Shown here one piece after another: positions 32,023 through 47,179 of a DNA stretch of 64,000 bases. This DNA comes from Actinomycetota bacterium (GTDB lineage: Bacteria; Actinomycetota; UBA4738; HRBIN12). Location: assembly GCA_040881665.1 (NCBI GenBank), contig JBBECT010000005.1:388138-452137 (forward strand), written 5' to 3'. The position numbers were made by a program, and so were the translations under genes. How positions within the stretch are numbered: position 1 is the stretch's first letter; every line of letters starts with the position of its first letter. The notes beneath the pieces were generated by a model. The model ran no database searches and was not told the DNA's origin. It saw only the letters and a list, made by a program, of their open reading frames with translations.

Positions 32023-32676
32023 ATGCCGGCCCGGCCGTCTCGTGACGAACGCGGTGGGTCCGAGTTCGACCGGGCCCTCTCGTTCTTCGATGCGACGTTC
32101 GCGCTCGCGCTGACGCTGCTCGTGACCACGCTCGACGTGGGGACCGAGACGAGGGTGTGGAGCAGTCTGGCCAACCTGAACGACGCCGTCGGCTCCCAGG
32201 CGGTTGCCTTCGTGATCAGCTTCATCGTGATCGGGGCCTACTGGTACGGCAATCACCGGTTCGTCGCACAGCTCGACGCGCTCGACGGCCGTCTGATCGT
32301 CGTCGAGCTCGCCATGATCGCGTCGATCGTGATCCTGCCGTTCTCCACGGAGGTGGTCGGCGACCCGACGATCGCCAACGAGCCACTTCCCGTCGCCGTG
32401 TATGCGCTGAACATCGCGATCGTGTCGATGCTCGACACGCTGCTGTCGGTCACCGCATACCGGCGGGGTTTGTTCGCGCACCCGCCGTCACCTTCGTACC
32501 ATCGGGCAGACGTGATCGACAGCGTGCTTCCGGCGATCGTGTTCCTCGCGTCGGTCCCGCTGGCCTACCTGTGGTCACCGATCGGGGCTCGGTACTCGTG
32601 GATCGCGCTCGTGCTGATCGGCCCGGCGACGGGACGATGGAAGGAACGCCGAGCGACGCTCAGTCGATCGGCGTGA
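32023..32676 (+). CDS. TMEM175-like (DUF1211) membrane protein
   Basis: 217 residues with six predicted membrane helices. The first helix carries RALSFFDATFALALTLLV, matching the R-x3-FSD signature of bacterial TMEM175 potassium channels except that Ser is replaced by Phe. YWYGNHRFVAQLD follows helix 2-3. Bacterial TMEM175 are K+ channels; the altered signature makes ion selectivity uncertain. The last 17 bases overlap the convergent ilvE gene. Confidence 0.85.
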   Translation: MPARPSRDERGGSEFDRALSFFDATFALALTLLVTTLDVGTETRVWSSLANLNDAVGSQAVAFVISFIVIGAYWYGNHRFVAQLDALDGRLIVVELAMIASIVILPFSTEVVGDPTIANEPLPVAVYALNIAIVSMLDTLLSVTAYRRGLFAHPPSPSYHRADVIDSVLPAIVFLASVPLAYLWSPIGARYSWIALVLIGPATGRWKERRATLSRSA

Positions 32677-33583
32677 GCCAGGAGCGATACTGCTCGAGCT
32701 CGCCCTTGGACGCCGCGAAGAACGTCCCCTGAAGCTCTTTCGTCACGGGTCCCCGTGAACCCTCGCCGACCTTCCGGTCGTCGACCTCACGGATCGGGGT
32801 GACCTCGGCCGCCGTCCCCGTGAAGAACACCTCATCGGCGTGGTACAGATCGGTGCGCACGAGGTTGTCCTCACGGACGTCGTAGCCCAGATCGCGGGCG
32901 ATCGTCATCACCGACTCGCGCGTGATGCCGTCGAGGCACCCCGCGGAGATCGGGGGGGTCGTGATCACGCGATCGCGCACGACGAAGATGTTCTCGCCGG
33001 ACCCATCGGTCACGAACCCGTGTTGGTTCAGCATGATCGCCTCGTCGTAGCCGGCATGGATCGACTCCAGCTTGGCGAGCACGCTGTTGATGTACTGCCC
33101 CGTCGCCTTCGCCGAGGTCGGCAGCGAATTCTGATCGTTGCGCTTCCACGAGGAGATCTTCACCCTGACGCCGTGCTCGAGCGCGTGCTCGCCGAGGTAG
33201 GCGCCCCAGGGCCACGTCGCCACGCACACGTTCAGCGGCGCCTGCAGCGGGTTCACACCCATCTCGCCGTACCCTCGGTACACGATCGGCCGGACGTAGC
33301 AGGTCGACAGGCCGTTGGCCTTGACCGTGTCGAAGATCGCATCGGTCAGCGCCTGGATCGAGTACGGGATCTCCATGTGATACAGGTGCGCCGACCGGAA
33401 GAGCCGCTTCAGGTGGTCGTTCACGCGGAAGACGGCCGGGCCCTGGGAGGTCTCGTAGACCCGGATACCCTCGAAGACGCCGCTGCCGTAGTGGAGGGCG
33501 TGGGACAGTACGTGGATCTGGGCCTTGTCCCAGTCCAGCAGCTCCCCATCCATCCAGATCTTCTCGACGGGCGTGATCGGCAC
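32660..33583 (-). CDS. ilvE: Branched-chain amino acid aminotransferase
   Basis: PLP enzyme exchanging amino groups between 2-oxoglutarate and Leu/Ile/Val keto acids. The 307 residues show ALHYGSGVFEGIRVY, GYGEMGVNP, the PLP lysine K159 in TSAKATGQYINS, DGSGENIFVV and VFFTGTAAEVTPI. The start GTG 33583 has GGGAGA upstream. Fold type IV, like the PabC part of the pabBC gene in this window, but with ilvE-specific motifs. Confidence 0.95.
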   Translation of the reverse strand: MPITPVEKIWMDGELLDWDKAQIHVLSHALHYGSGVFEGIRVYETSQGPAVFRVNDHLKRLFRSAHLYHMEIPYSIQALTDAIFDTVKANGLSTCYVRPIVYRGYGEMGVNPLQAPLNVCVATWPWGAYLGEHALEHGVRVKISSWKRNDQNSLPTSAKATGQYINSVLAKLESIHAGYDEAIMLNQHGFVTDGSGENIFVVRDRVITTPPISAGCLDGITRESVMTIARDLGYDVREDNLVRTDLYHADEVFFTGTAAEVTPIREVDDRKVGEGSRGPVTKELQGTFFAASKGELEQYRSWLTPID

Positions 33584-33673: not shown

Positions 33674-34616
33674 CTAACTCCGATCGAGGAGAACCACCAG
33701 CCCGAAGAGGAACCAAGCCACGAGGATCAACGGCCCCGCCCCGGCCCAGAGTGTCCACGAGATTCGTCTCGATGTGGCGTACGCGATGCACGCGCCCGCT
33801 CCCAACACCGCGAGAGTGAAGACTCCGACGAACCATGCGGAACGCGTCACGCATCCGGTGACGAGGAGTCCGACCAGCACGCTCACGACGACCCAGAGGA
33901 ACCGCTGAGCGCCTTTCCCCGCAACGAAGCACCATCCGATGTACGGGCGCTCGGTTCGGGCACAGTACGCGCGCCACGCTTCCAACCCTCCTGCACGATC
34001 ATCGCATCCAGCCCTTGCGTGCGCTTCGAGATACAGGTCGGCAGAGGTTGGCTGGTCGAGGGAGACTGCTCGAAGTCGATCGGCTAGGGTTGCGGCTTCG
34101 CACGGGCCCTCGACGTCCAGCACGATCCACGTCAAAAGGCGAAGAGCCTGAATGTCCTCCGGATCTCGCTCGAGACGCTCCTCGCCGACCGCCCGGGCCC
34201 AGGCCCGATCTCGCTTCGTCTCCCGGGAGTCATGCCGGCGCGGATCGTGGAAGGCGACAGCCCACGCATACAGGAAACGGATCTGTTCGATGCCGGGATG
34301 AGCCTTCATGAGCTCGTACAGGCGGGCACGTTCTCCAGAAGACAAGTGCCCGAATCGCGGCCCGCTCCAGCAGATCGCGTACGCCTCGATCACCGGATCG
34401 GCAGGTGCAACTCGGCGCGCCTCAACGAGCGCCTGCAATGCTTCGTCACCTCGATCGAGGCGGGCCAGTGCAATGGCGAGGGACGAGAAGGTCTCCGGCC
34501 TCCGTCGCTCTCGTCAGACGAGCAACGAGGGATTCGGCGGGCTCGGCCGAGAGGACCGCCCGCAGACGGGCTTCGCTCGCAGCCGGCACCAGACTTCCTC
34601 CGTCGTCAGCGCTCAT
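33674..34616 (-). CDS. TPR-like membrane protein with apparent frameshift
   Basis: Two reading frames that join into one protein. Frame A opens at ATG 34616, which overlaps the methyltransferase stop (ATGA), and encodes an Ala-rich helical start (MSADDGGSLVPAASEARLRAV) before stopping at 34446. Frame B is open from 34513 and runs to 33674; it continues the helical-repeat pattern (SLAIALARLDRGDEALQAL), then DPEDIQALRLL, and ends with three to four membrane helices. The first start codon in frame B is TTG 34438, without a binding site. A +1 shift within 34449-34513 would restore a protein of about 313 residues. Third codon positions use more A/T than in neighbouring genes. Family unknown; pseudogene, sequencing error or programmed shift are all possible. 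Confidence 0.6.
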
Positions 34617-35416
34617 CTGGCTTCCAACTCATAGACGCGCCAGGCGAGGCGGTGTTCGGGTTCCGGTGGACCGTGCAGGGCGCCGAATCGCTCCTTGGCC
34701 CACGGTTGCACGACCTCGATCGCCGACTGCAGCCGATCATCGGGGACGCGCCACGTCCACGAGTACAGGCGTCGGCGGACCTCGTCGAACCAGCGCTCGA
34801 TCGAGCTGTGGTCGGGGCCGGTGATAAGCGGGGTGTCCGCGAGCCGGGCGCCGTGGGCGAGCAGGGCCGCATCCAGATCCGTCGCTCCGTGTCGCATGTT
34901 CAACCCGACGGCCTCGGCGTCCGGCCCCAGCTCTTCAACGAACCGCAGCCACAGGTCGCGCCAGCCTCCCTGGTAGCCCCCCGGCTCGATCACGACGTGC
35001 CCGCCGGGCACCACCACACGAACGAGCTCGGACACGGCGTCGCGCCACCCGGGGATCAGGTGGAGCACCCAGCGCAGGTACGCGCCACCGAACGCATCGT
35101 CTCCGAAGGGCAGCCGGGTCGCGTCGGCCTGCACGAGCGGGAAGGGTGGAGCGTCGCCGGCCTTGACGATGAGCCTGCGGAGCATCGGCTCCGAGAGATC
35201 CGCCCCCGCCAGCGAGATGCCGCGCTCGTGCAACGGGAGCGCGATCGCGCCCGTTCCCACACCGGTCTCGAGGATCGTACCCCTGCCGGCGAGCTCACCC
35301 TCGAGCAGATCGATCGAGCGCTCGAGGGCGACCGGATCGGTGATCCGGGTGGCGTCGTAGTAGTCGGCGGCACGATCGAACGAGACGGAATCGTGCCGAG
35401 GTGTCGGGCCGCTCAA
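34613..35416 (-). CDS. SAM-dependent methyltransferase (class I)
   Basis: 267 residues. Motif I is ILETGVGTGAIALPL, with the acidic residue in GADLSEPMLRR, ADATRLPFGDDAFGGAYLRWVLHLI as motif II, and a post-motif VVVPGGHVVIEPGG typical of UbiE/type 11 methyltransferases. The acceptor is unknown. The likely start TTG 35416 overlaps the Rieske-like gene's TGA (TTGA), and its own stop overlaps the next gene (ATGA), so it is part of the cluster. It could move methyl groups released in the pathway or modify the substrate, but this is inference. Confidence 0.85.
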   Translation of the reverse strand: MSGPTPRHDSVSFDRAADYYDATRITDPVALERSIDLLEGELAGRGTILETGVGTGAIALPLHERGISLAGADLSEPMLRRLIVKAGDAPPFPLVQADATRLPFGDDAFGGAYLRWVLHLIPGWRDAVSELVRVVVPGGHVVIEPGGYQGGWRDLWLRFVEELGPDAEAVGLNMRHGATDLDAALLAHGARLADTPLITGPDHSSIERWFDEVRRRLYSWTWRVPDDRLQSAIEVVQPWAKERFGALHGPPEPEHRLAWRVYELEAR

Positions 35417-36363
35417 CTCGCTTCGGCGGGGGCCTCGCGCCACACGGGGTTCGGGCTGGCCTCGTTCACGCCGCCGTCGCGGTAGCCGCGGGCGAACATC
35501 GTCACGATCATGTACGGACCCATCTCCCAGTCGGTCGACAACGGACCCGGGCGGAACCCGCGGGAAGTCACCCCCCGCTGCAGAGACTCGCATGCGGCCC
35601 AGTCCTCGCGGTTGGTCACGTCCCAGAAATCGACGGCCCAGCTCGGATCGAAGTCCTCGCGCTCCACGAGTTCGGGCGGGAACAACCACTCGCACTCCAC
35701 GTAGGAGCGTCCGGGTGACAGCGGCTCGATCCGGTGGGTCAAGACGTAGTCGGGGTGCGGCGAGACGAGCAGGTTCGGGAAGATCCCGAAGTAACCGACC
35801 TCGCGCAGTTGACGCTCCGACAGCCCGCGCAGCGGGATCCCGCGGGAACGGCCGTCCAACGACATCGTCTCGCAGCCCTCGCGCAGGTCCATCGGCCCCG
35901 CGACGTACAGGCCACGAAGCTCGAGCGAATAGCCGCTCTCGGGCGGGGTCACGCGACACAGCTCCGGATGGATCTGCGAGCAGTGGTAGCACTCCTGGTA
36001 GTTCTCGTGGATCAACTTCCAGTTCGCGGCGACCTCGTAGGAGTGGCGAGCGCCGACCACGAGCCGCTCCGGCTCGTACGGGCCCAGGTGCTCCATAACG
36101 TTGCCGAAGTGCTCCTCGAACGGCAGCGCGTCGCCCGAGCGATTCACGAAGGCCCAACCGCCGAACTCACGCTGCGACGAGTGCCGCTTCCGGACGCCCG
36201 CCCGGCCGGTGCACACCCACGAGGCGTCGAAGAACCGTTCGCGCTCCCATTCGAAGAGCTCCTCGGAGCTGTACGCCTCGCCGGGCAGGCCCCTGCTGCT
36301 GCCCCAGGGCCGCAGGACGGCTTCCAGGGCAGTCGGGTCGATCGGTGCGGAACGGGCACTCAT
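35413..36363 (-). CDS. Rieske-type oxygenase catalytic domain lacking the Rieske [2Fe-2S] domain
   Basis: 316 residues from ATG 36363, about 85 shorter than the Rieske monooxygenases it resembles (choline/stachydrine-monooxygenase-like alpha subunits). The N-terminal LPGEAYSSEELFEWERE and SWVCTGRAG (49-56) jump directly to FGGWAFVNRSGD (67-78); the entire CxH...CxxH iron-sulfur segment is absent, in frame. The mononuclear iron site is kept: ENYQECYHCSQIHPEL with His127 and His132, and Asp254 in REDWAACE. Without the cluster, electrons must come from elsewhere or the protein is inactive or non-oxygenase. TACCAT seven bases before the ATG suggests its own leaderless promoter. It follows the GcvT-like gene by 46 bases. 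Confidence 0.85.
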   Translation of the reverse strand: MSARSAPIDPTALEAVLRPWGSSRGLPGEAYSSEELFEWERERFFDASWVCTGRAGVRKRHSSQREFGGWAFVNRSGDALPFEEHFGNVMEHLGPYEPERLVVGARHSYEVAANWKLIHENYQECYHCSQIHPELCRVTPPESGYSLELRGLYVAGPMDLREGCETMSLDGRSRGIPLRGLSERQLREVGYFGIFPNLLVSPHPDYVLTHRIEPLSPGRSYVECEWLFPPELVEREDFDPSWAVDFWDVTNREDWAACESLQRGVTSRGFRPGPLSTDWEMGPYMIVTMFARGYRDGGVNEASPNPVWREAPAEAS

Positions 36364-36409: not shown

Positions 36410-37585
36410 CTACTGCTTGGGAACGTCTTTCTTCGGGTCGAGGAAGGGCAACGGCACGACCTCGGCATCCAGATCCCCCGCGGGAGACTCCAGGGCGACA
36501 TGCGTGCCGGTTCCCGCGAGCTCGATCGGCACCCAGACGTAGCCCATGTTGAACTCCAGCCGTGGTGAATAGCTCGCGGACGTCGTGCGGCCGACGACCT
36601 CCCCGCCCGACTTCACCGGCCAGAAGTTCTCGAGCCACATCGCCAAGGGATCGGAGTTGATCTTCACGCCGACGAGCTTGCGCTTCACCCCGTCCGCCTT
36701 GATCTTCTCCAGCGCGGCACGCGAGACGAACGTGGTGTCGGTGTCGAGCTCGACCAGGCGCTCGAGCCCGGTCACCTCGAAGGGGTTGTTCGTCACGTCC
36801 ATGTCGTTGCCGTAGTTGAAGATCCCGGCCTCCATGCGGCGCTGATCGCTCGGGGCGATCGCGCGGATATCGAACTCCTCGCCGGCGGCCATCACCTTGT
36901 CCCACAGCTCCCCGCCCCGGGCGGAATCCCGCAGGTACAGCTCGTAGCCGACCTCGCCGGTCCACCCGGTGCGCGAGATCACCAGTGGGATCCCGTCCAG
37001 CTCGGTCTGCGCGCACCAGTAGTACTTCAGGTTCATCACATCGTCGCCGAACAGCTTGTGGATCACCAGTTTGGACTTCGGTCCCTGTAGCTGCAGGGGG
37101 GAGACGTCCGGCTCGCGGATCTGTACGTCCATGTCCGCGAACGCGGCGACACCGAGTGCGTACAACAGAGCGTCGGAGTCGGCGAGCGAGAGCCAGAAGT
37201 GGTTCTCGCCGAGGCGAAGCAGGATCGGGTCGTTGACGATCCCGCCGTCGGGCGCACAGATCAGCACGTACTTACCCTGCCCGACCGCACAGGTCGACAG
37301 ATCACGGGGTGTCAACAGCTGGGTGAACCGCGCGGCGTCGGGACCGGTGATCTCCACCTGACGCTCGACCGCAACGTCCCACAGCGTCACATGGTTCAGC
37401 AGGTGCCAGTACTCCTTGACGTCGTCGTCGTAGAGCGTGGGGATCAGCATGTGGTTGTACAGATCCCAACTGGCGGCGCCGGCGTCGACCGTGCGATCGA
37501 AGTACGGCGACTTCTTGTACCAAGACGCGAAGTAGAAGGGGAACCACTTGTTGCGCTCACCCTGGGGTGCTTCGTTGCTACCCAT
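36410..37585 (-). CDS. GcvT/DmdA-like tetrahydrofolate-dependent enzyme
   Basis: 391 residues of the glycine-cleavage T-protein fold. It resembles DMSP-demethylase-like proteins more than true GcvT: YNHMLIPT (43-50), WDVAVERQVEITGPDA (69-84), LTPRDLS, GGIVNDP (114-120, the folate/catalytic region), EPDVSPLQLQGPKS, RTGWTGEVGYELYL and ERMEAG-like QRRMEAGIFNYGNDMD. Such enzymes move a methyl or methylene group from a methylated amine or sulfonium to THF. The substrate is unknown. The ATG overlaps the flavoprotein stop by eight bases, so these two are translationally coupled. No gcvH or gcvP is near, arguing against glycine cleavage. Confidence 0.88.
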   Translation of the reverse strand: MGSNEAPQGERNKWFPFYFASWYKKSPYFDRTVDAGAASWDLYNHMLIPTLYDDDVKEYWHLLNHVTLWDVAVERQVEITGPDAARFTQLLTPRDLSTCAVGQGKYVLICAPDGGIVNDPILLRLGENHFWLSLADSDALLYALGVAAFADMDVQIREPDVSPLQLQGPKSKLVIHKLFGDDVMNLKYYWCAQTELDGIPLVISRTGWTGEVGYELYLRDSARGGELWDKVMAAGEEFDIRAIAPSDQRRMEAGIFNYGNDMDVTNNPFEVTGLERLVELDTDTTFVSRAALEKIKADGVKRKLVGVKINSDPLAMWLENFWPVKSGGEVVGRTTSASYSPRLEFNMGYVWVPIELAGTGTHVALESPAGDLDAEVVPLPFLDPKKDVPKQ

Positions 37586-39206
37586 GCTCGATGAACCTCC
37601 TCATCGCGCTCCGCACGCGTTCGCGGTCCTTGCGGATCTCTCGGATGCAGTTGTAGGCGGGGATCCCACACACCCCTCCGCCGGCGTGCGTCGCCGACGA
37701 GCACTGGTACAGGCCGGCGATCGGCGTTCGATAGTCGGCGAACCCCGGTGCGGGACGCATGTGGAACAGCTGCTCGGCCGACAACTCGCCGTGGAAGATG
37801 TTGCCGCCGATCAGCCCCCACTCTTTCTCCATCTCATGCGGGCCGAGCACCTGCTTGTGGAGCATCGAATCCTTGAAGCCCGGCGCCAGCGCGTCGTACC
37901 CATCGATCACGCGATCGGCGTAGGCGTCGAGCTCTGCGGGATGCGGCTCCTCGCTCCACTCGTGGGGAACCCACTGGGTGAACAGCGACAGGATGTGCGT
38001 ACCCTCGGGGGCGAGGGTGTGGTCCCACACCGTCGGACACACCCCGTCCGAGAACGGTCGCGTCGAGGGGATCCCGGCGCGGGCCTGCTCGAATCCCGTC
38101 TCCAGGTACTCGATCGAGTGGGCGAGCTCGAACCCGCCTGACAGGTCGGTAAGCTCCTGGTTCGCGGTGAACCGCGGCAGCCGGTCGACGGCGAGGTTGA
38201 TCTTCACCACGCCCGAGCGCGACTTCCAGTTCTCGATGTCCCGGACGAAGTCGGCCGGCAGCTCGCTCCGGTCGAGCTGGCGCAGGAACGTGATCTTCGG
38301 GTGGATCGCCGTGACCACGAGCGGAGCGTCGATCTCCTCACCGCCCTGGAGCGTTACACCGGTCGCGCGCCCCGCCTGCGTCCGGATCTCGTCGACCCGT
38401 GCGTTCAGACGGATCTCGGCGCCGAAGCTGCGGGCCGCCGAGGCGATCGCATCCGAAACGGCGCCCATCCCACCCTCGGGAACCGCCCACGCGCCCAGGT
38501 GTCCGTCCCCGACGTCGCCGATCGAATGGTGGGCCATCACGTATCCGGTGCCGGGCTCGTAGGGGCCCGCCCACGTGCCGATCAGGCCGTTCAGGGCCAT
38601 CACGGTCTTGACCTGGTCCGATTCGAAGAACATGTCGAGCACGTCGGCGATGCTCATCGTCAGCAGCCGGGTCACGTCGCCGATCGCTCGCACGTCGAGT
38701 CCGCGGAACCGCCACGCGAGCCGCAACTGCTCGAACAGGTCTCCGGGCGCCTTGGATCCGAGCTTCGGCGGTGTGGCCATGAGCAGCGCGCCGAGCACCT
38801 CGGCCAGTCCGCCGATCCAGGCGTCCCACCGCTCGATCGCGTCGGCGTCGGCCTTCGAGAACTTGGCGAACTCCTCGTAGTTGCGCTGGGCGTCGTCGTC
38901 GTACTGCGTGATCGCACGCCCGTCCGGGAACGGCACGAGGTACGGTCCGACCGGGTAGACCTTGTAACCGTGCCGCTCGAGTTGCAGGTCTTTGAGGATC
39001 GTGTCCGGCATCAAGCTCATCACGTAGCTGAGCGTGGTGACCTTGAACTCAGGCGCCTCCGGCCACGGGATGTCGGTTGCGGCCGCACCGCCGACCTTGT
39101 GCCGGGCCTCCAGGACGATCGTGCGCGCGCCGAGCTTCGCGAGGTACGCGCCCGCCACGAGGCCGTTGTGCCCGCCACCGATGACGACGGCGTCATAGCG
39201 GTTCAC
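37578..39206 (-). CDS. FAD-dependent oxidoreductase, PYROXD2/phytoene-desaturase-like
   Basis: 542 residues from GTG 39206 (GAGG seven bases upstream). It opens with the Rossmann dinucleotide motif VVIGGGHNGLVAGAYLAKLG and ILEARHKVGG-type sequence, continues with CrtI/PYROXD2-family features (GYVMAHHSIGDVG, WAVPEGGMGAVSDAIA), and ends with the FAD-binding patch GLYQCSSATHAGGGVCGIPAYN. No carotenoid genes (crtB, crtE) are nearby, so desaturation of phytoene is unlikely; oxidation of an amine or similar substrate feeding the GcvT-like enzyme is more plausible. First gene of the cluster. Confidence 0.9.
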   Translation of the reverse strand: MNRYDAVVIGGGHNGLVAGAYLAKLGARTIVLEARHKVGGAAATDIPWPEAPEFKVTTLSYVMSLMPDTILKDLQLERHGYKVYPVGPYLVPFPDGRAITQYDDDAQRNYEEFAKFSKADADAIERWDAWIGGLAEVLGALLMATPPKLGSKAPGDLFEQLRLAWRFRGLDVRAIGDVTRLLTMSIADVLDMFFESDQVKTVMALNGLIGTWAGPYEPGTGYVMAHHSIGDVGDGHLGAWAVPEGGMGAVSDAIASAARSFGAEIRLNARVDEIRTQAGRATGVTLQGGEEIDAPLVVTAIHPKITFLRQLDRSELPADFVRDIENWKSRSGVVKINLAVDRLPRFTANQELTDLSGGFELAHSIEYLETGFEQARAGIPSTRPFSDGVCPTVWDHTLAPEGTHILSLFTQWVPHEWSEEPHPAELDAYADRVIDGYDALAPGFKDSMLHKQVLGPHEMEKEWGLIGGNIFHGELSAEQLFHMRPAPGFADYRTPIAGLYQCSSATHAGGGVCGIPAYNCIREIRKDRERVRSAMRRFIEHG

Positions 39207-39333: not shown

Positions 39334-40608
39334 TTACGTGATCGGAACGTCGTTGAGCGCGTGTTCAGCCTGCGGGACGGGATCGCTCGAGCGCTCCTCG
39401 GATCCACCCCCCTCGCGGCGGACATGCAGGACCGGGAGCAGCACCAGCGCCGCGAGCAGGCCGAAGACCCCACCGAGCACGTACACGGCGCGAGCGCCGA
39501 AGGCGCGGATGATCGAGCCCGCGAGGAGGAACGAGACGAGCATCGCCAACTGCCAGATCGACTCGGACGCGGCGAGTACGCGCGCGCGGAGCGCGTCGGG
39601 GGTCCGACGCTGGCGCATGCTCTGCTCGGCCACCAGGCCGATCGCATCGTTCGTCCCGTTCAAGAACAGGGCGACCAAAGCCACCCAGAACACCGGGGAC
39701 AGGCCGATCGCCGCCGAGGTGATCGCGATGCCGAGCGTCGAGAGCACGATCACGACCGGCTCGGTGCGAACGGTCATGAAGCGGCCGAGGATCGAACCGA
39801 CCACCGAGCCGGCCCCCCATGCCCCGATGATGTAGCCGTAGCCGTTGCCCCCCAGACCGAACTCCTCCGCGAGGGGGATATCCGCGATCATGCTCATCCC
39901 CAGACCGAGCACCAGGACGCTCCACGCCAGCGTGATCCGCCACAGCACCGGTTCGCGGCGGAGGAAGGAGATCCCCGCCCGGAGCGCCGCGAGGCCATGG
40001 TCGTGCAGGTCGTCCTCCGAGCGCTCGCGCGAGAAGTGCGCATGGATCGTCCACACGATCACCGCCGAGACGACGAACGAGATCCCGTTGATCAGGAACA
40101 CCCACGTCGGTCCCACCTGGTCGACGAGCACGCCACCGATCAGCGGTCCGACCGCGATCCCCGAGTAGCGGCCGATCGCGACGAGACTGTTGGCTTTCGC
40201 GAGGTCCTGCTCCCCTGCGAGGTTCGGGATCGCCGCGGCCGAGGAGGACTCGAAGGGCAGCTCCACGATCGCAGCGAAGAAGGCGAACCCGAGCAACAGC
40301 GCCGGACGATCGGTCACCGCCGACATCCCGAGGAAGAAGGCGGCTCCCAGCAGGTCGGAAACGATCATCACCCGGCGTCGATCGAACCGATCGCCGATCG
40401 CGCCGGCGAACGGGCCGGCGATGCCCTGGGTACCGAAGGTCAGGACGAGCGCCGCGGTGAGCCATGCGAACGATCCCGTCTGCGTGTAGACGGTGAAGTT
40501 CAGGGCGACGAACGCCGCGGCCCCACCCGTGATCGAGATCAGACGAGCCGTCGCGAGGCGTCGAACGGCGGAACGGGAACGGGAACGGGAACGTGGTCGG
40601 GTAGCCAT
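39334..40608 (-). CDS. MFS transporter (enterobactin-exporter/DHA3-like)
   Basis: 424 residues with about 12 membrane helices and the MFS loop 2-3 signature GAIGDRFDRRRVMIVSD. The arrangement resembles EntS/DHA3-type drug or siderophore exporters. The N-terminus is RSRSRSRS, encoded by a tandem hexamer (unit GGAACG on the plus strand, about four copies near 40570-40594). It lies 127 bases upstream of the flavoprotein start in the same orientation; whether it belongs to the same transcription unit is unclear because a promoter-like element lies between. Confidence 0.9.
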   Translation of the reverse strand: MATRPRSRSRSRSAVRRLATARLISITGGAAAFVALNFTVYTQTGSFAWLTAALVLTFGTQGIAGPFAGAIGDRFDRRRVMIVSDLLGAAFFLGMSAVTDRPALLLGFAFFAAIVELPFESSSAAAIPNLAGEQDLAKANSLVAIGRYSGIAVGPLIGGVLVDQVGPTWVFLINGISFVVSAVIVWTIHAHFSRERSEDDLHDHGLAALRAGISFLRREPVLWRITLAWSVLVLGLGMSMIADIPLAEEFGLGGNGYGYIIGAWGAGSVVGSILGRFMTVRTEPVVIVLSTLGIAITSAAIGLSPVFWVALVALFLNGTNDAIGLVAEQSMRQRRTPDALRARVLAASESIWQLAMLVSFLLAGSIIRAFGARAVYVLGGVFGLLAALVLLPVLHVRREGGGSEERSSDPVPQAEHALNDVPIT

Positions 40609-40765: not shown

Positions 40766-42349
40766 TCAGTCCGGGAGCGTGATGAAACGCGTGCGCTGGG
40801 CCCCGATCGCCCGGGAGAGCTCGTCGAGGATCTCGGATGACAGCGGTGCGTCGACCGTGAGCCCCATCAGGGCCTCTCCGCCGGCCGCCGTGCGGCCGAC
40901 CTCCATCGTGGCGATGTTGATGCCGCGGTCGCCCAGGACGGTTCCGACCTTGCCGATCACGCCAGCCTTGTCCTCGTAGGTGAAGAACAGCATGTACCGG
41001 GCGGGAGGGATCTCGATGTCGAAATCGAAGACCTGCATCACGCGCTCGGCGTTCCGCTTGCCGAGCAGGGTTCCCGCAACCGTGACGTCCCCGTCGTCGG
41101 TCTCGGCGCGAAGGCCGATCAGGCTGACGTAGTCACGGGAGACCGTCGAGGTGGTCTCCGACAGTTCGATCCCGCGCTCGCGCGCGATCACCGGCGCGTT
41201 CACGAACGAGATCGGCTCGTGGACGACGCCCGCCAGCGCTCCCTTCAGGATCGCCAGGGTGAGCACACGGGTGTCGCTCTCGGCGATCCGTCCCAGGAAC
41301 GAGGCTTCGATCGTGCGCACCGCGCCCTGTGCCAGACCCGTGAGGATCGATCCGAGGTGCTCGGCCAGCGGCAGGAACGGCCGCACCGTCTCGGATACCT
41401 CGGCCCCCGCCGACACGTTCACGGCGTAGGAAACGAACTCCCCGCGCAGGGCGAGCCCGACCATCTCGGCGATCGTGGTGCCCGCCTTGTCCTGCGCCTC
41501 GACCGTCGAGGCGCCCAGGTGCGGCGTCACGACCACCGAGTCGTATGCGAAGAGCGGGCTGTCGGTCGTCGGCTCGACCGCGAACACATCGAGCGCGGCA
41601 CCGGCGACCTGGCCGTCCTCGATCGCCTTCGCGAGCGCGTCCTCGTCGAGGATGCCGCCGCGAGCAGTGTTCACGATCCGAGCGCCCGGCTTCAGCATCG
41701 ACAGCTCCTTCGCGCCGATCAAACCCTCGGTCTCCGCCGTGCGCGGAAGGTGGAGCGTGACGAAGTCGGACTGCACCAGGAGCGCCTCGAGCGTCGGCAT
41801 CAGCTCGACCCCCATCTGTTTGGCTCGCTCCTTCGACACGTAGGGATCGAACGCGATCAAACGCATCCCGAACCCCGCGGCGCGCTCGGCGACCATCGCG
41901 CCGACCCGACCGAGGCCCACGATCCCGAGCGTCTTGCCGAGCAGCTCGACACCCTGGTACCGGGAGCGGGCCCATTCGCCCGCCTTCAACGCGGCGTGCG
42001 CCTGCGGAACGTTCCGGGCCTGTGCGAGCAGGATCGCGATCGTGTGCTCGGCGGCGGACACGATGTTGGACTGCGGCGCGTTGACCACCATCACACCGCG
42101 GCGCGTGGCCGCCTCGACATCGACGTTGTCCAAGCCGATCCCCGCTCGGCCGACGACCTTGAGGTTCTCCCCGGCCGCGAGGACCTCGGCGGTCACCTGG
42201 GTCTGCGATCGGACCACGAGAGCGTCGAACGGCCCGATCGCCCCGACGAGGTCTCCCGTCGCGAGGTCGGTGCGCAGCGAGACCTGGAAGTCCTCCTTGA
42301 GGAGATCCAACCCGAGCTCGGAGAGGGGCTCGGTGACGAGAACGCGCAC
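40766..42349 (-). CDS. serA: D-3-phosphoglycerate dehydrogenase
   Basis: Oxidises 3-phosphoglycerate, the first step of serine synthesis. The 527 residues are the long form: substrate/NAD domain with VVGRAGIGLDNVDVEAA, LGIVGLGRVGAMVAERA (NAD motif), NTARGGILDEDAL and TPHLGASTVEAQDKAG; an allosteric-substrate-binding domain; and a C-terminal ACT domain (YMLFFTYEDKAGVIGKVG) for serine feedback. GTG 42349 is four bases after the aminotransferase stop, so the two form an operon. Confidence 0.96.
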   Translation of the reverse strand: MRVLVTEPLSELGLDLLKEDFQVSLRTDLATGDLVGAIGPFDALVVRSQTQVTAEVLAAGENLKVVGRAGIGLDNVDVEAATRRGVMVVNAPQSNIVSAAEHTIAILLAQARNVPQAHAALKAGEWARSRYQGVELLGKTLGIVGLGRVGAMVAERAAGFGMRLIAFDPYVSKERAKQMGVELMPTLEALLVQSDFVTLHLPRTAETEGLIGAKELSMLKPGARIVNTARGGILDEDALAKAIEDGQVAGAALDVFAVEPTTDSPLFAYDSVVVTPHLGASTVEAQDKAGTTIAEMVGLALRGEFVSYAVNVSAGAEVSETVRPFLPLAEHLGSILTGLAQGAVRTIEASFLGRIAESDTRVLTLAILKGALAGVVHEPISFVNAPVIARERGIELSETTSTVSRDYVSLIGLRAETDDGDVTVAGTLLGKRNAERVMQVFDFDIEIPPARYMLFFTYEDKAGVIGKVGTVLGDRGINIATMEVGRTAAGGEALMGLTVDAPLSSEILDELSRAIGAQRTRFITLPD

Positions 42350-42353
42350 GGGC

Positions 42354-43547
42354 TCAGACCGCCTGGGCCTGCGCGAACACGTCCTCCGCGGCGGCGACCG
42401 CCGCACCCCGCTTGACCGGGTAACCGAGGCGCTCGAGCGTCATCTCCAGGCCCGCGAGGCCCCGGATCATGTCGAGCGGCGCGTAGTAGCCGAGGTGCCC
42501 GATCCGGAACACCGTCCCCTTCAACGGTCCCTGCCCGGGCGCCAAGACGATCCCGAAGTCCGACCGGATCCGCGCACAGATCGCGTCGGCGTCGAGCCCC
42601 TCGGGGGCGCGGATCGCCGTCACGGTGACCGCGTGCTCGAGGTCCTCCCCGAACAGATCGAGTCCGAGAGCGCGGACACCCTCCTTGATCGCGCGTGCGA
42701 GCACACGGTGTCGCTCGAGCGCGGCCTCGACACCGTCCTGCTCGTAGAGCTTCAGGGCTGCGTGCAATCCCTGGATCACCGAGATCGCCGGGGTCCACGG
42801 GCTCTCCGGATCGGGAAGGTCGTAGAACCGCTTCGTCGTCGCCCAATCGAAGTAGAAGCGTGGGTTGGTCGCCGAGCGCGACGCCTCCCACGCGGTCTCG
42901 GAGATGGCCACGAAGGCGACCCCGGGCGTGGCCGACAGCGCCTTCTGCGACCCGCTCACCGCGACGTCGATCCCCCACGCGTCGAAATCGAACGGAACCG
43001 CGCCGAGGCTGGACACCGCGTCGACCACGACCATCGCGCCGCGCTGTTTGGCGACCGGCGCGATCGCTCCGATGTCGTGGCACACGCCGGTCGAGGTCTC
43101 GCTCTGGGTCAGCAGGACCGCCTTGACCGGATGCTCGTCGAGCGCGGCAGCGACGTCGTCGGCCTTGACGGTCTGCCCCCACTCGTAGTCGATCGTTCGC
43201 ACTCGCAGCCCGTACGTTCCGGCGATCTTGGAGAACCGCTCGGCGAAGAACCCGGCGAGCGGCACGAGCACCTCGTCGCCGGGAGAGAAGCAGTTCGCGA
43301 TCGCGGACTCGAGTCCGCCGGTGCCCGACGAGCTGAACAGCAGAACGTCATCCTGCGTGCGGTACAGGCGCTGGAGCCCCTCGGTGACCTCGCGGAGCAG
43401 GTTCCCGAAGCCGGGACCGCGGTGATAGACGATCGGGCTGCCCTGGGCGACGTAGACCTCGGGCGGGATCGGGGTGGGTCCGGGGGCGAGGATGATCTCG
43501 GGCCTGTCCACGGTAGGTCCAGCTCCTTGCGTGTCGGTCGCGGGCAT
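42354..43547 (-). CDS. Class V aminotransferase (serine--glyoxylate / phosphoserine type)
   Basis: 397 residues, PLP fold type I. PLP lysine K202 in SGSQKALSATPG, VVVDAVSSLG with the PLP-binding Asp, QSETSTGV and YHRGPGFGNL near the N-terminus. The sequence resembles serine-glyoxylate/alanine-glyoxylate aminotransferases. Being cotranscribed with serA and with no serC in sight, it may act as phosphoserine aminotransferase, as proposed for related enzymes in other lineages; the alternative is serine-glyoxylate exchange. A TAGGCT box at 43571-43566 (minus strand) supports ATG 43547; GTG 43511 is a shorter alternative. Confidence 0.9.
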   Translation of the reverse strand: MPATDTQGAGPTVDRPEIILAPGPTPIPPEVYVAQGSPIVYHRGPGFGNLLREVTEGLQRLYRTQDDVLLFSSSGTGGLESAIANCFSPGDEVLVPLAGFFAERFSKIAGTYGLRVRTIDYEWGQTVKADDVAAALDEHPVKAVLLTQSETSTGVCHDIGAIAPVAKQRGAMVVVDAVSSLGAVPFDFDAWGIDVAVSGSQKALSATPGVAFVAISETAWEASRSATNPRFYFDWATTKRFYDLPDPESPWTPAISVIQGLHAALKLYEQDGVEAALERHRVLARAIKEGVRALGLDLFGEDLEHAVTVTAIRAPEGLDADAICARIRSDFGIVLAPGQGPLKGTVFRIGHLGYYAPLDMIRGLAGLEMTLERLGYPVKRGAAVAAAEDVFAQAQAV

Positions 43548-43602
43548 CGTCTGCGCCGAAGCTTCAGCCTAGCAGCCGCCCCGACCCCGACGGCGCCGCG
43601 TG

Positions 43603-43616
43603 GTGACGCGGGTCAC
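43603..43616. promoter_or_regulatory. CRP/GlxR-like palindrome GTGACGCGGGTCAC
   Basis: GTGA-N6-TCAC symmetry matches the core of CRP-family sites. Its centre (43609.5) is about 41.5 bases upstream of the start expected from the TAGGCT box at 43639-43644 of the rightward gene, the class II activator position. It lies between divergent genes and could act on both. Confidence 0.4.
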
Positions 43617-43638
43617 GGACTCCAGGGGCCGCGCGCCC

Positions 43639-43644
43639 TAGGCT
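43639..43644 (+). promoter_or_regulatory. -10 box TAGGCT of L,D-transpeptidase-like gene
   Basis: TAGGCT, with a leader of about 55 bases containing GAGGAGG before the ATG at 43707. Confidence 0.4.
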
Positions 43645-43706
43645 TGCTGAACCTCCCCTTCCCCGACGGCCCGGCCCCCACCGGTCCCCGAACGAGGAGG
43701 ACACCC

Positions 43707-44582
43707 ATGGCCCGACGAAGCGCGATCGCGATCGGCTGCGCGCTGGCGCTCTCGACCCTGTTCCCTGCCGCTCCTGCCGTGGCCGAGTGGACCGACCCCG
43801 TGTGCGAGGTTGACGGCGCGCCGGAGGCAGGCCTGTCCGGATGCGTTCCCCCCGCGGACGCCGGTGGCACTTCGTTCGACCCGAACTCCTGCGCGGGCGC
43901 GCGGACCTGCGAGCAGACCTACGCCGAACTCGAGGGAACGCAGTTCGCCGACCCGATCGTGCGCGACGAGGACGATCGGGCGATCGCCGAGCTCGACGTC
44001 CGGCTCTCGAGGGGCAGCGGAGTCGCGTATGCGGGATGGACGACGTTCGCGCTGTACGACGGCAAGCAATGCAGGGGCACGGTCCGCGACAACGGCCACT
44101 GCGGTTGGCTGTACCACAAGTTCCGCGCCGTCACCGACCAGGGACCCCGTCCCGGCGTGTTCGTGACCGCGTTCCCGGCGCGTTCGGGCAACAACTACCC
44201 CCCGCAGCGGTGGGTTCGCAACGTCGGCCCGGTTCCCGATCGCTTCAAGGGCTCTGCCGGCGGCAAGGTCCGCGACTCGTTCCGCTGGGGGCGTATGCAC
44301 GGCAGCTACACGGGATTCGAGTGGGACTCGCGATCGTCGTTCTTCCCGGGCAAATGGCGCCTCGATCCCTGGGTGATCTACAAGCCGGGCTCGTCTCGCA
44401 CCCGCAGCTCGTTCGAGATCCACGGCGGCCGGCGCTCCGACGGCGGCGCCAGCCTGTGGACGACCCGTACCGCCGGATGCATCCGGCTCTCGATCAAGGG
44501 GATCCGCGGCCTCAAGTCGAAGTGGGACAACCGCACGGACAACCGCCGCCGAGCCAGCCTCTACGTGGTCCATCATGGCTGA
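43707..44582 (+). CDS. Secreted L,D-transpeptidase-like (YkuD) protein
   Basis: 291 residues with an excellent ribosome binding site (GAGGAGG, six bases before ATG). A signal peptide (cleavage near PAVAEW) is followed by an Ala/Gly/Cys-containing N-terminal region with six cysteines, and a C-terminal YkuD-type active site: FEIHGG with the catalytic His and TAGCIRLS with catalytic Cys near residue 258. L,D-transpeptidases cross-link peptidoglycan stems or attach proteins. The N-terminal domain (about 30-150) is not one I recognise. The stop overlaps the next gene by eight bases. Confidence 0.87.
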   Translation: MARRSAIAIGCALALSTLFPAAPAVAEWTDPVCEVDGAPEAGLSGCVPPADAGGTSFDPNSCAGARTCEQTYAELEGTQFADPIVRDEDDRAIAELDVRLSRGSGVAYAGWTTFALYDGKQCRGTVRDNGHCGWLYHKFRAVTDQGPRPGVFVTAFPARSGNNYPPQRWVRNVGPVPDRFKGSAGGKVRDSFRWGRMHGSYTGFEWDSRSSFFPGKWRLDPWVIYKPGSSRTRSSFEIHGGRRSDGGASLWTTRTAGCIRLSIKGIRGLKSKWDNRTDNRRRASLYVVHHG

Positions 44583-45801
44583 GCGAGCCGATGCCGAGCG
44601 CTCCGACGTCCGGGGCCTGCGCCCGATCGCCGTCGCGTTGGGCGTGCTGCTCGCGCTCGCGGCATGCACCGACCGCGGCGCGGACGACCGTGCGGCTCGA
44701 GCCGGGTTCCACTCCCCCTCGGCGGGCACACCCGCACCATCTCCGGTTCCCTCGGGGCCGTTCGGAACCGCGCGCTGGAGCGGCGAACCGGTCCCGACCG
44801 GCGCGCTGCTGCATGACGACGGGCGCACGCTCTGGTCGATCGCGCTGGACGGAGACCGATCGGCCGTGTGGCGCCACCCCGAGGCGTTCGTGCATCGGGT
44901 GGCGGCCTCCGAGGACGGCCGCCGCGTCGCGCTCGCCGTGACCCGGGGCGACGACCGCTCGCTCGGACCCGAGGATCCGTCGGCTTTCCTCTACGTCCTC
45001 GAGCCGGACGGCTCGGTGCGAACGGTCGACGTCGTCGACGACTATCGCGTGATCGAGGCACCGACCTTCCTGCGCCCACCGACCACACCTCGCGGTCCCG
45101 AGCGCGTGTACTGGATCCGTTTCGCGGACGGGATCGACGACCGTGGTCGGCTCGAGACCGACGTCATGGTCGACGACGGCGGACCGCGGCGCGTGGCGCT
45201 CCCGCTGCGGTTCGCCGAGGGGGTGATCGACGTGTACGGCTACCCGGGCGCCTCGCGATTCTCGGTCACGCTGTTCCGGCAGAACGACGTGCCAACGCGG
45301 TTCGAGATCCTCCGCAACGACGACGAGGGCCGCAGCACGGACGCCGCGCTCACGCTCTGGGGGAACAACGAACCTCGCGCACAGACCGATTCGGGCGTGG
45401 GGGTCGCGTGGATCTCTCCCACCGACTACGTGATCCCGGTGGTCCACGAGTTCTTCGCACGCGGATACACGCTGCGTCGGTTCCGTGTCGGGTGCGAGGC
45501 GATGGGTTCCGAGGTCGTCTACCGGGGCACCGGCATCGACCGGGGGTACGAAGAGGTGCCCTGGCAGCTCCTTCCCGCGGGGGCGCGCCGAGTTCTGGTG
45601 CTGCGATCGGCCGACGTGCGCCGGATCGCCGATGGCCGGGCCGCGTTCGCCCGCTGGCACACGATCGACCTGCGTTCGGGACGGCTGATCGAGACGTCGA
45701 TCACCTGGCGGCCCGGCGAGGGCGGGTGGACCTGGGTTGCGCCCGCGTCGCGCGCGAACGACGAGGGACGGTGCGAGGGGATCGACTGGCGATTCCCCTG
45801 A
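44575..45801 (+). CDS. Lipoprotein with predicted beta-propeller fold, unknown function
   Basis: 408 residues from ATG 44575, inside the end of the L,D-transpeptidase-like gene. A lipoprotein signal ends in LALAAC; the rest shows repeated blade-like strand patterns (GRTLWSIALDGD, DGRRVALAVTRGD, SAFLYVLEPDGSV) reminiscent of TolB/WD-like propellers. No catalytic motif. Coupling to the transpeptidase suggests a shared envelope role, perhaps a scaffold or sensor. Confidence 0.8.
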   Translation: MAERADAERSDVRGLRPIAVALGVLLALAACTDRGADDRAARAGFHSPSAGTPAPSPVPSGPFGTARWSGEPVPTGALLHDDGRTLWSIALDGDRSAVWRHPEAFVHRVAASEDGRRVALAVTRGDDRSLGPEDPSAFLYVLEPDGSVRTVDVVDDYRVIEAPTFLRPPTTPRGPERVYWIRFADGIDDRGRLETDVMVDDGGPRRVALPLRFAEGVIDVYGYPGASRFSVTLFRQNDVPTRFEILRNDDEGRSTDAALTLWGNNEPRAQTDSGVGVAWISPTDYVIPVVHEFFARGYTLRRFRVGCEAMGSEVVYRGTGIDRGYEEVPWQLLPAGARRVLVLRSADVRRIADGRAAFARWHTIDLRSGRLIETSITWRPGEGGWTWVAPASRANDEGRCEGIDWRFP

Positions 45802-45832
45802 GGCGGGGACCGAACCGGCGGGAACCGAGCGG

Positions 45833-47179
45833 CTACTCCTCGGGGGGTCCGCGGCCACCGGGCTCCTTGCCGGAGGCCAGCCCCCGTTCGATACGGGGCC
45901 AGAGCAGGTACGACACGGCCACGATGGCGTAGAACGCCGCGAGCACGAGGATCCCTCCGCGGAACTCGATCGGCAGCAGCGCAGGCAGCAGCGCCCCCGC
46001 GACCCAGGCGAGCTGGAACTGCACCTCGTACCGGACGAAGACCCTCCCCAATGCTCCCTCGGGCGCCTGACGCTGCATCAAGCTCTGGAACGCCAGGCGC
46101 CCGAGCTCGCTCGCGCCACCCACCGCGAGTCCGAACAGGGCGAGCATCGGCAACGTGAACGCCTGGAAGGCGAGCAGCGCCCCGAGCCCGGCGCCGGCCA
46201 CACAGCCAACGACGACGAGCTCCTCACGGATCGTGTTCGGCAGCCGCGGGGCGAGGACGTCGGCCAGCAACACTCCGATCACCCCCGCCCCGAACAGCAC
46301 CCCGAACCAGTACGCGGGCTGGCCCTCTCGACGCAGGGCGAACGCGAGCAGGAAGATCATGAACCCGTTCGCGGCGCGCAGGCCCATCGCGCCGATCGCC
46401 GGCGTCGCGAGCGAGGCGATCCTCCCGCGCTTGCCCACCTGCTCCGTCCGCGGCGTCGGCGCGACCCGCGGTTGTGGCAGGCGAAGCATGAGCAAAGCCG
46501 TCGCGCCGTAGACGAACGACGCCAGGTACAAGGTGGTGGCGTCGCCGAACAGGCGAAGCACCACGATCCCCGGAACCGCCGCGAGCACGGCCCCGACCGC
46601 CGCCACGCGACCGAGCCGGGCGTTGGCCCGAACGAGTCCCTCCCCCGGCCCCGCATAGGCGAGCACGAGCGCGCTCCGGCTGACGCCGTGCACGCGCGAA
46701 CCGGCGAGCAACAGGAACACGGCCGGGAACAACAAGAGAGACCCGGTGCGAGGCGCCGCATAGAGCGCGAGGAACGCTCGTGCGGCCGCGGCCGCGACCG
46801 TGATCGCCCGTCGGGGTCCGGCACGGTCGAGAACGGGAACGAGCAGGGGCCCGGCGACGGCGAGCGGCGCCATCGTCAGGAGCAGGTACAGCGCCACCTC
46901 CCCCTCCGCCTCACCGACCGGGATCGAGAAGAAGACGGAGTTCGCGAGCGCCACCGCGACGAGCACGTCACCGCCGACGCTCGCCAGGTTCACGAGCGCG
47001 TATCCGTCGAGGGGGTTGTCCGAGCGCCACATCCGCCGCAGGGGCCAGACTGCCGTCGCGACCCCGGAGGCCGTCAGGACCAGCAGCACGGCCCACCACG
47101 GGCGCTTGTGGGAGCGCCGTCCGCCCCGTCCGTCGGACGGCCCCTCCGTGTCCCCGCGCTCGTCGCTGGGCGGCTCCAC
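45833..47179 (-). CDS. MFS-type membrane transporter, divergent
   Basis: 448 residues with about 12 hydrophobic segments and a charged, Arg-rich N-terminal tail (residues 1-27). Loop 2-3 has VPVLDRAGPRRAITVAA, a degenerate MFS signature, and the family appears close to uncharacterised actinobacterial MFS proteins near gatB. Substrate unknown. It follows gatB by 12 bases, so it probably shares the gatCAB transcript. Confidence 0.85.
   Translation of the reverse strand: MEPPSDERGDTEGPSDGRGGRRSHKRPWWAVLLVLTASGVATAVWPLRRMWRSDNPLDGYALVNLASVGGDVLVAVALANSVFFSIPVGEAEGEVALYLLLTMAPLAVAGPLLVPVLDRAGPRRAITVAAAAARAFLALYAAPRTGSLLLFPAVFLLLAGSRVHGVSRSALVLAYAGPGEGLVRANARLGRVAAVGAVLAAVPGIVVLRLFGDATTLYLASFVYGATALLMLRLPQPRVAPTPRTEQVGKRGRIASLATPAIGAMGLRAANGFMIFLLAFALRREGQPAYWFGVLFGAGVIGVLLADVLAPRLPNTIREELVVVGCVAGAGLGALLAFQAFTLPMLALFGLAVGGASELGRLAFQSLMQRQAPEGALGRVFVRYEVQFQLAWVAGALLPALLPIEFRGGILVLAAFYAIVAVSYLLWPRIERGLASGKEPGGRGPPEE

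Follow-up and report, generated by a model that had tools for sequence, protein, structure and literature searches.

The window analysed here is a stretch of 64,000 nucleotides from the genome of an Actinomycetota bacterium (G000; other G numbers denote genomes of relatives, L numbers loci, and C numbers contigs). At 35413..36363 on its minus strand lies an unbroken ATG-TGA frame of 316 residues, identified from the frame, Pfam, the alignment and AlphaFold as a group V Rieske-oxygenase catalytic subunit that lacks the Rieske domain. The coordinates, strand and open frame were as reported in the first-pass annotation. The Pfam search of the protein matched PF00848 (Ring_hydroxyl_A) alone, at residues 99-282 with an E-value of 6.5e-47, and gave no match to PF00355 (Rieske). 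The N-terminal Rieske [2Fe-2S] domain of alpha subunits, with its CxH...CxxH ligands, was absent from the protein by translation, Pfam and alignment alike. The two blocks flanking the missing domain are SWVCTGRAG at residues 48-56, which had been numbered 49-56, and FGGWAFVN at residues 67-74, as first placed. In the full-length paralogue of this genome (G000:C5:81939-83132), which is 51% identical over residues 65-316, the segment from ..GDQ to EWxGW encloses 86 residues that make up the whole Rieske domain, while the 316-residue protein has none of them, only a short linker, AGVRKRHSSQREFG (residues 55-68; 36160..36201, minus strand, from the alignment). Thus, the earlier description of a cleanly missing domain of about 85 residues was borne out. 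A Rieske domain encoded nearby in another frame, gene or strand was ruled out, as no Rieske motif was encoded within ~20 kb of the gene in any frame, gene or strand; the sole C.H..C..H string in the window, at 58.9 kb, looks spurious.

The gene is part of a block that is conserved across the family. In minus-strand order, the block consists of a class V aminotransferase (42375..43511), a SerA-type phosphoglycerate dehydrogenase (40769..42349), an MFS transporter (39334..40608), a CrtO/amine-oxidase-like FAD oxidoreductase that is a conserved neighbour (37578..39206), GcvT1 of the DmdA-like aminomethyltransferase/demethylase family (36410..37585), the Rieske-less oxygenase, a SAM-dependent methyltransferase (34613..35416) and, at the downstream end, a branched-chain aminotransferase (BCAT; 32660..33583), all on the minus strand. 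GcvT1 scored 345 bits against the DmdA model, the cut-off of which is 410. Neighbouring genes are coupled by overlaps, in agreement with the first reading of the locus: the TTG start of the methyltransferase overlaps the oxygenase stop (TTGA), and the FAD oxidoreductase and GcvT genes overlap as well. The CrtO-like FAD oxidoreductase has undergone a large expansion in G000, with ten copies (E<=1e-60) in a genome of 2.46 Mb. In G016, two copies that are 86% identical were found at the contig ends of C36 and C64 (L038 and L156), reflecting either a duplicate or a strain mixture. In genus g12, GcvT1 is separated from the Rieske-less gene by a YqgE/AlgH (DUF179) gene (L038:15867-17260), which is absent in G000; G016 has an additional phosphotransferase-like gene in this interval.

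The active site of the catalytic domain is intact. The mononuclear-iron 2-His-1-carboxylate site was said at the outset to be retained, and His127, His132 and Asp254 are indeed invariant columns in the alignment of 45 relatives, as are the bridging Glu124 and the pair Cys125/Cys128. Five of these residues fall within the motif ECYHCSQIH (35968..35994, minus strand), which holds Glu124, Cys125, the Fe ligand His127, Cys128 and the Fe ligand His132, and the Fe ligand Asp254 was placed by the alignment at 35602..35604 on the same strand. A CxxC pair next to the first His ligand of the iron is a described group V motif (PMC10952381), and C125/C128 provide it here. The protein also has what characterizes an alpha subunit on the catalytic side, i.e., the PF00848 domain with the 2-His-1-carboxylate site and, in Glu124, the bridging carboxylate for intersubunit electron transfer. 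Glu124 aligns with E205 of carnitine monooxygenase CntA, in which all E205 mutants tested were inactive because the electron flow from the Rieske cluster of the neighbouring subunit was disturbed (PMC7948474). The retention of Glu124 could, on the other hand, be phylogenetic inertia. When the family alignment was supplied, AlphaFold predicted a complete catalytic domain with a pLDDT of 94.2, including the two strands that flank the excision (E50-54 and E64-67); the full-length paralogue of G000, Rieske domain included, was modeled equally well. The best PDB matches were the stachydrine demethylase Stc2, 3n0q and CntA, and the closest NCBIfam model was that of the glycine betaine monooxygenase GbcA, with a score far under its cut-off. 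In full-length relatives, 95 positions reach a conservation of 85% or more. All three Rieske-less proteins of the family (see below) keep 85 of these, and the altered ones include W67 and N74, both beside the excision, W153Y and G155A.

The same gap, at the same alignment columns, was found in G015 and G016, two species of another genus of the same family, whose proteins are 70-72% identical to that of G000. In G016 the gene is located on C36 (L011/L038), and in G015 one part of it lies at the end of contig C77 and the other at the end of C259 (JAOUEA010000102.1), the two ends overlapping in sequence. The three Rieske-less proteins form a clade with 100/100 support and a long stem. For the G015/G016 pair, dN/dS of the Rieske-less gene was 0.061/0.452 = 0.14, compared with 0.083/0.557 = 0.15 for the full-length paralogue of the same two species, so the constraint on the Rieske-less gene is no weaker than that on the full-length one. 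The first-pass annotation had left room for a recent in-frame deletion or an assembly artefact, which would be confined to one assembly. Decay does occur in the oxygenase family, as a full-length relative in G156 has a one-base frameshift in its catalytic part. However, the gap lies at identical columns in three separately assembled genomes, the open frame is kept in all gapped copies, and the shared presence in two genera, the clade support and the low dN/dS together refute both a recent deletion and an assembly error at this locus. An artefact or a decaying pseudogene is therefore practically inconceivable, and most likely the Rieske domain was excised in an ancestor of at least two genera.

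A further gapped copy, of 309 residues, is encoded in G234, which belongs to another Actinomycetota family (f14; L084:9856-10782). The loss is again in frame and has nearly the same breakpoints. The nearest relative of this copy is the frameshifted gene of G156, from the same genus (L085:1281-2455), in which the Rieske domain is still present, and in the tree both sides of the G234 gap group with it. The hypothesis that the two gapped forms go back to one event was rejected (AU p=0.017), the G234 copy being sister to a Rieske-bearing one. The Rieske domain has thus disappeared on two or more occasions, at almost the same boundary. The G234/G156 pair is under purifying selection, with a dN/dS of 0.10. 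In both losses, the Gln at the position of ..GDQ before the Rieske domain is kept and the sequence resumes just before the GW.FxN strand. We infer that structure sets these boundaries: the two ends of the Rieske domain would lie close together, and the domain could drop out leaving the catalytic domain unharmed.

The position of the gene within the block bears on its function. In eight sister species (G001, G002, G003, G005, G006, G007, G010, and G012), the slot before the methyltransferase and BCAT is occupied by a second DmdA-like GcvT, GcvT2, or by fragments of it, G005 having a broken form. In G000, G015, and G016, the Rieske-less protein fills this slot, and a quick tree placed none of the GcvT copies examined from these three genomes in the GcvT2 clade. 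The slot, between GcvT1 or YqgE and the methyltransferase, corresponds to 35413-36363 of the window and to L152:5974-7146, L153:5135-6307, L163 and L164. One operon slot has therefore undergone a non-orthologous exchange, with GcvT2 in eight species and the Rieske-less oxygenase in three. The two proteins have unrelated folds, and the DmdA-like GcvT family is folate-dependent, not iron-dependent. Since they occupy one and the same position of the block, an equivalent demethylation step is plausible, and the exchange suggests that the Rieske-less protein does the job of a demethylase.

An oxygenase of this kind would have to obtain its electrons from elsewhere. No Rieske gene adjoins the Rieske-less gene in any of the genomes that hold it. 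Relatives carry a pair of genes for an HcaC-like Rieske ferredoxin and an HcaD-like reductase upstream in the same block, and in G015 and G016 the pair was found on contigs that match the upstream part of the block. The block of G000 has no such pair, unrelated plus-strand genes being found there instead, and an HcaC-like Rieske ferredoxin of this genome is encoded at C4:619163. The G000 genes at 43511-45905 of the window, the site of the pair in several sister species, include one for a lipoprotein, and one other looks by eye like a secreted L,D-transpeptidase. As a dedicated partner, the ferredoxin/reductase pair was rejected, because genomes that lack the Rieske-less gene have it as well and it is missing from the G000 block. 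The other candidate donor is the close full-length paralogue. All four genomes that encode a gapped protein have one, which is weak evidence because 8/17 family genomes hold one anyway, and the paralogue is located elsewhere, in a different operon, adjoining two other GcvT genes. A search of G000 (96% complete) for the FNR-type reductase domain PF00175 gave no match, and no Rieske-FNR fusion was seen among the Rieske proteins of this genome, so an NdmD-like reductase was discarded as a candidate.

Taken together, the reading we favour, at about even chances, is that of a working free-standing group V catalytic subunit that performs an O2-dependent demethylation in a one-carbon block, with its Rieske cluster supplied in trans. 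The Fe(II) 2-His-1-carboxylate site, together with O2, would remove a methyl group from a small N-methyl or onium compound, and the methyl carbon would move on towards the folate-dependent DmdA-like GcvT encoded beside it. The iron would receive its electrons via the retained Glu124 from a Rieske cluster in trans, provided either by a stand-alone HcaC-type Rieske ferredoxin docked in the vacated domain position or by the full-length paralogue, whose Rieske domain would serve both chains of a mixed trimer. The earlier proposal that the electrons come from another protein may accordingly hold, being the best supported of the options that remain. A bolder version, which we regard as unlikely, is that a generic stand-alone Rieske ferredoxin, and not a fused or dedicated domain, plugs into the vacated site and reduces the mononuclear iron directly. 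This would be a minimal three-protein oxygenase that has arisen at least twice by clean excision and can stand in for a folate-dependent demethylase while the rest of the block stays the same.

Other readings do without an electron donor of this type. After losing its electron input, the protein could have become, as the first-pass annotation also offered, a non-oxygenase iron enzyme that catalyzes a redox-neutral reaction, or one with electrons donated by the substrate, in the same pathway. The site has stayed intact although its electron source is gone, and a redox-neutral GcvT-type protein holds the slot in the sister species, but the large majority of family-conserved positions is unchanged, including Glu124 on the electron path, and nothing points to a remodelled active site; this outcome is thus improbable. 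Alternatively, H2O2, perhaps from the adjacent FAD oxidoreductase, might feed the mononuclear iron, and no Rieske domain would be needed. There is a precedent in the peroxide shunt of naphthalene dioxygenase, which involves only the mononuclear iron while the Rieske cluster stays oxidised (PMC6678576). The FAD gene is moreover a fixed neighbour, and no Rieske gene is close by. Nevertheless, full-length oxygenases, too, have relatives of the FAD gene next to them, and the gene was rejected as a marker of domain loss for this reason; such relatives occur in almost every genome of the order that lacks the Rieske-less gene, the closest families of the FAD protein are carotenoid ketolases and desaturases, which leaves H2O2 production putative, and the bridging Glu124 is kept. 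We therefore consider a peroxide-driven enzyme distinctly unlikely. The co-occurrence with the full-length paralogue would also fit a non-catalytic or regulatory subunit that takes one position in a mixed trimer with it. Against such a role stand the invariant iron ligands, the strong purifying selection and the separate operons of the two genes, which make it very unlikely.

Compared with known systems, the protein is closest to the group V Rieske monooxygenases Stc2, GbcA, and CntA, with which it shares the catalytic fold and sequence, the 2-His-1-Asp site, the bridging Glu and the ECYHC cysteine pair. It differs from them in being a 316-residue chain without the Rieske domain or its ligands, in a genome where the PF00175 search found no reductase domain. 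Split Rieske oxygenases are known from a couple of cases so far. NdmC of the 7-methylxanthine demethylase NdmCDE from Pseudomonas putida CBB5 is a monooxygenase subunit with non-haem iron and no Rieske cluster; the NdmD reductase fusion supplies the Rieske domain, and the GST-like NdmE is required as well (PMC4408171). The present protein, too, is a catalytic subunit without a Rieske domain, a likeness drawn from the published description of NdmC. Unlike for NdmC, no Rieske domain fused to an FMN/ferredoxin-type reductase was found in the genome, and no GST-like, NdmE-type gene was noticed among the neighbours examined. As neither a Rieske gene nearby nor a PF00175 domain was found in G000, the NdmC/NdmD arrangement appears not to be in use. 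The other case is the chlorophyllide a oxygenase of Micromonas, which consists of two polypeptides and still works (PMC9615114); it is a eukaryotic pigment enzyme with a partner chain, whereas no dedicated partner was identified for the 316-residue protein. A search of the open-access literature for oxygenases "lacking the Rieske domain" or "Rieske-less" returned no paper. A group V lineage reduced to the catalytic part, with no adjacent or fused Rieske partner, therefore looks new, and so do the recurrent loss at nearly the same boundary and the operon interchange with a folate-dependent demethylase-type protein.

What defines a Rieske oxygenase is the presence of two metal centres in a single chain. 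A catalytic-only form that is natural, selected and recurrent offers a direct test of whether the Rieske domain can be interchanged and of how far the electron path has to be covalent, as well as a simple scaffold for modular oxygenase engineering. For the family itself, the exchange with a DmdA-like demethylase in an otherwise conserved block points to the function that the Rieske-less protein may serve.
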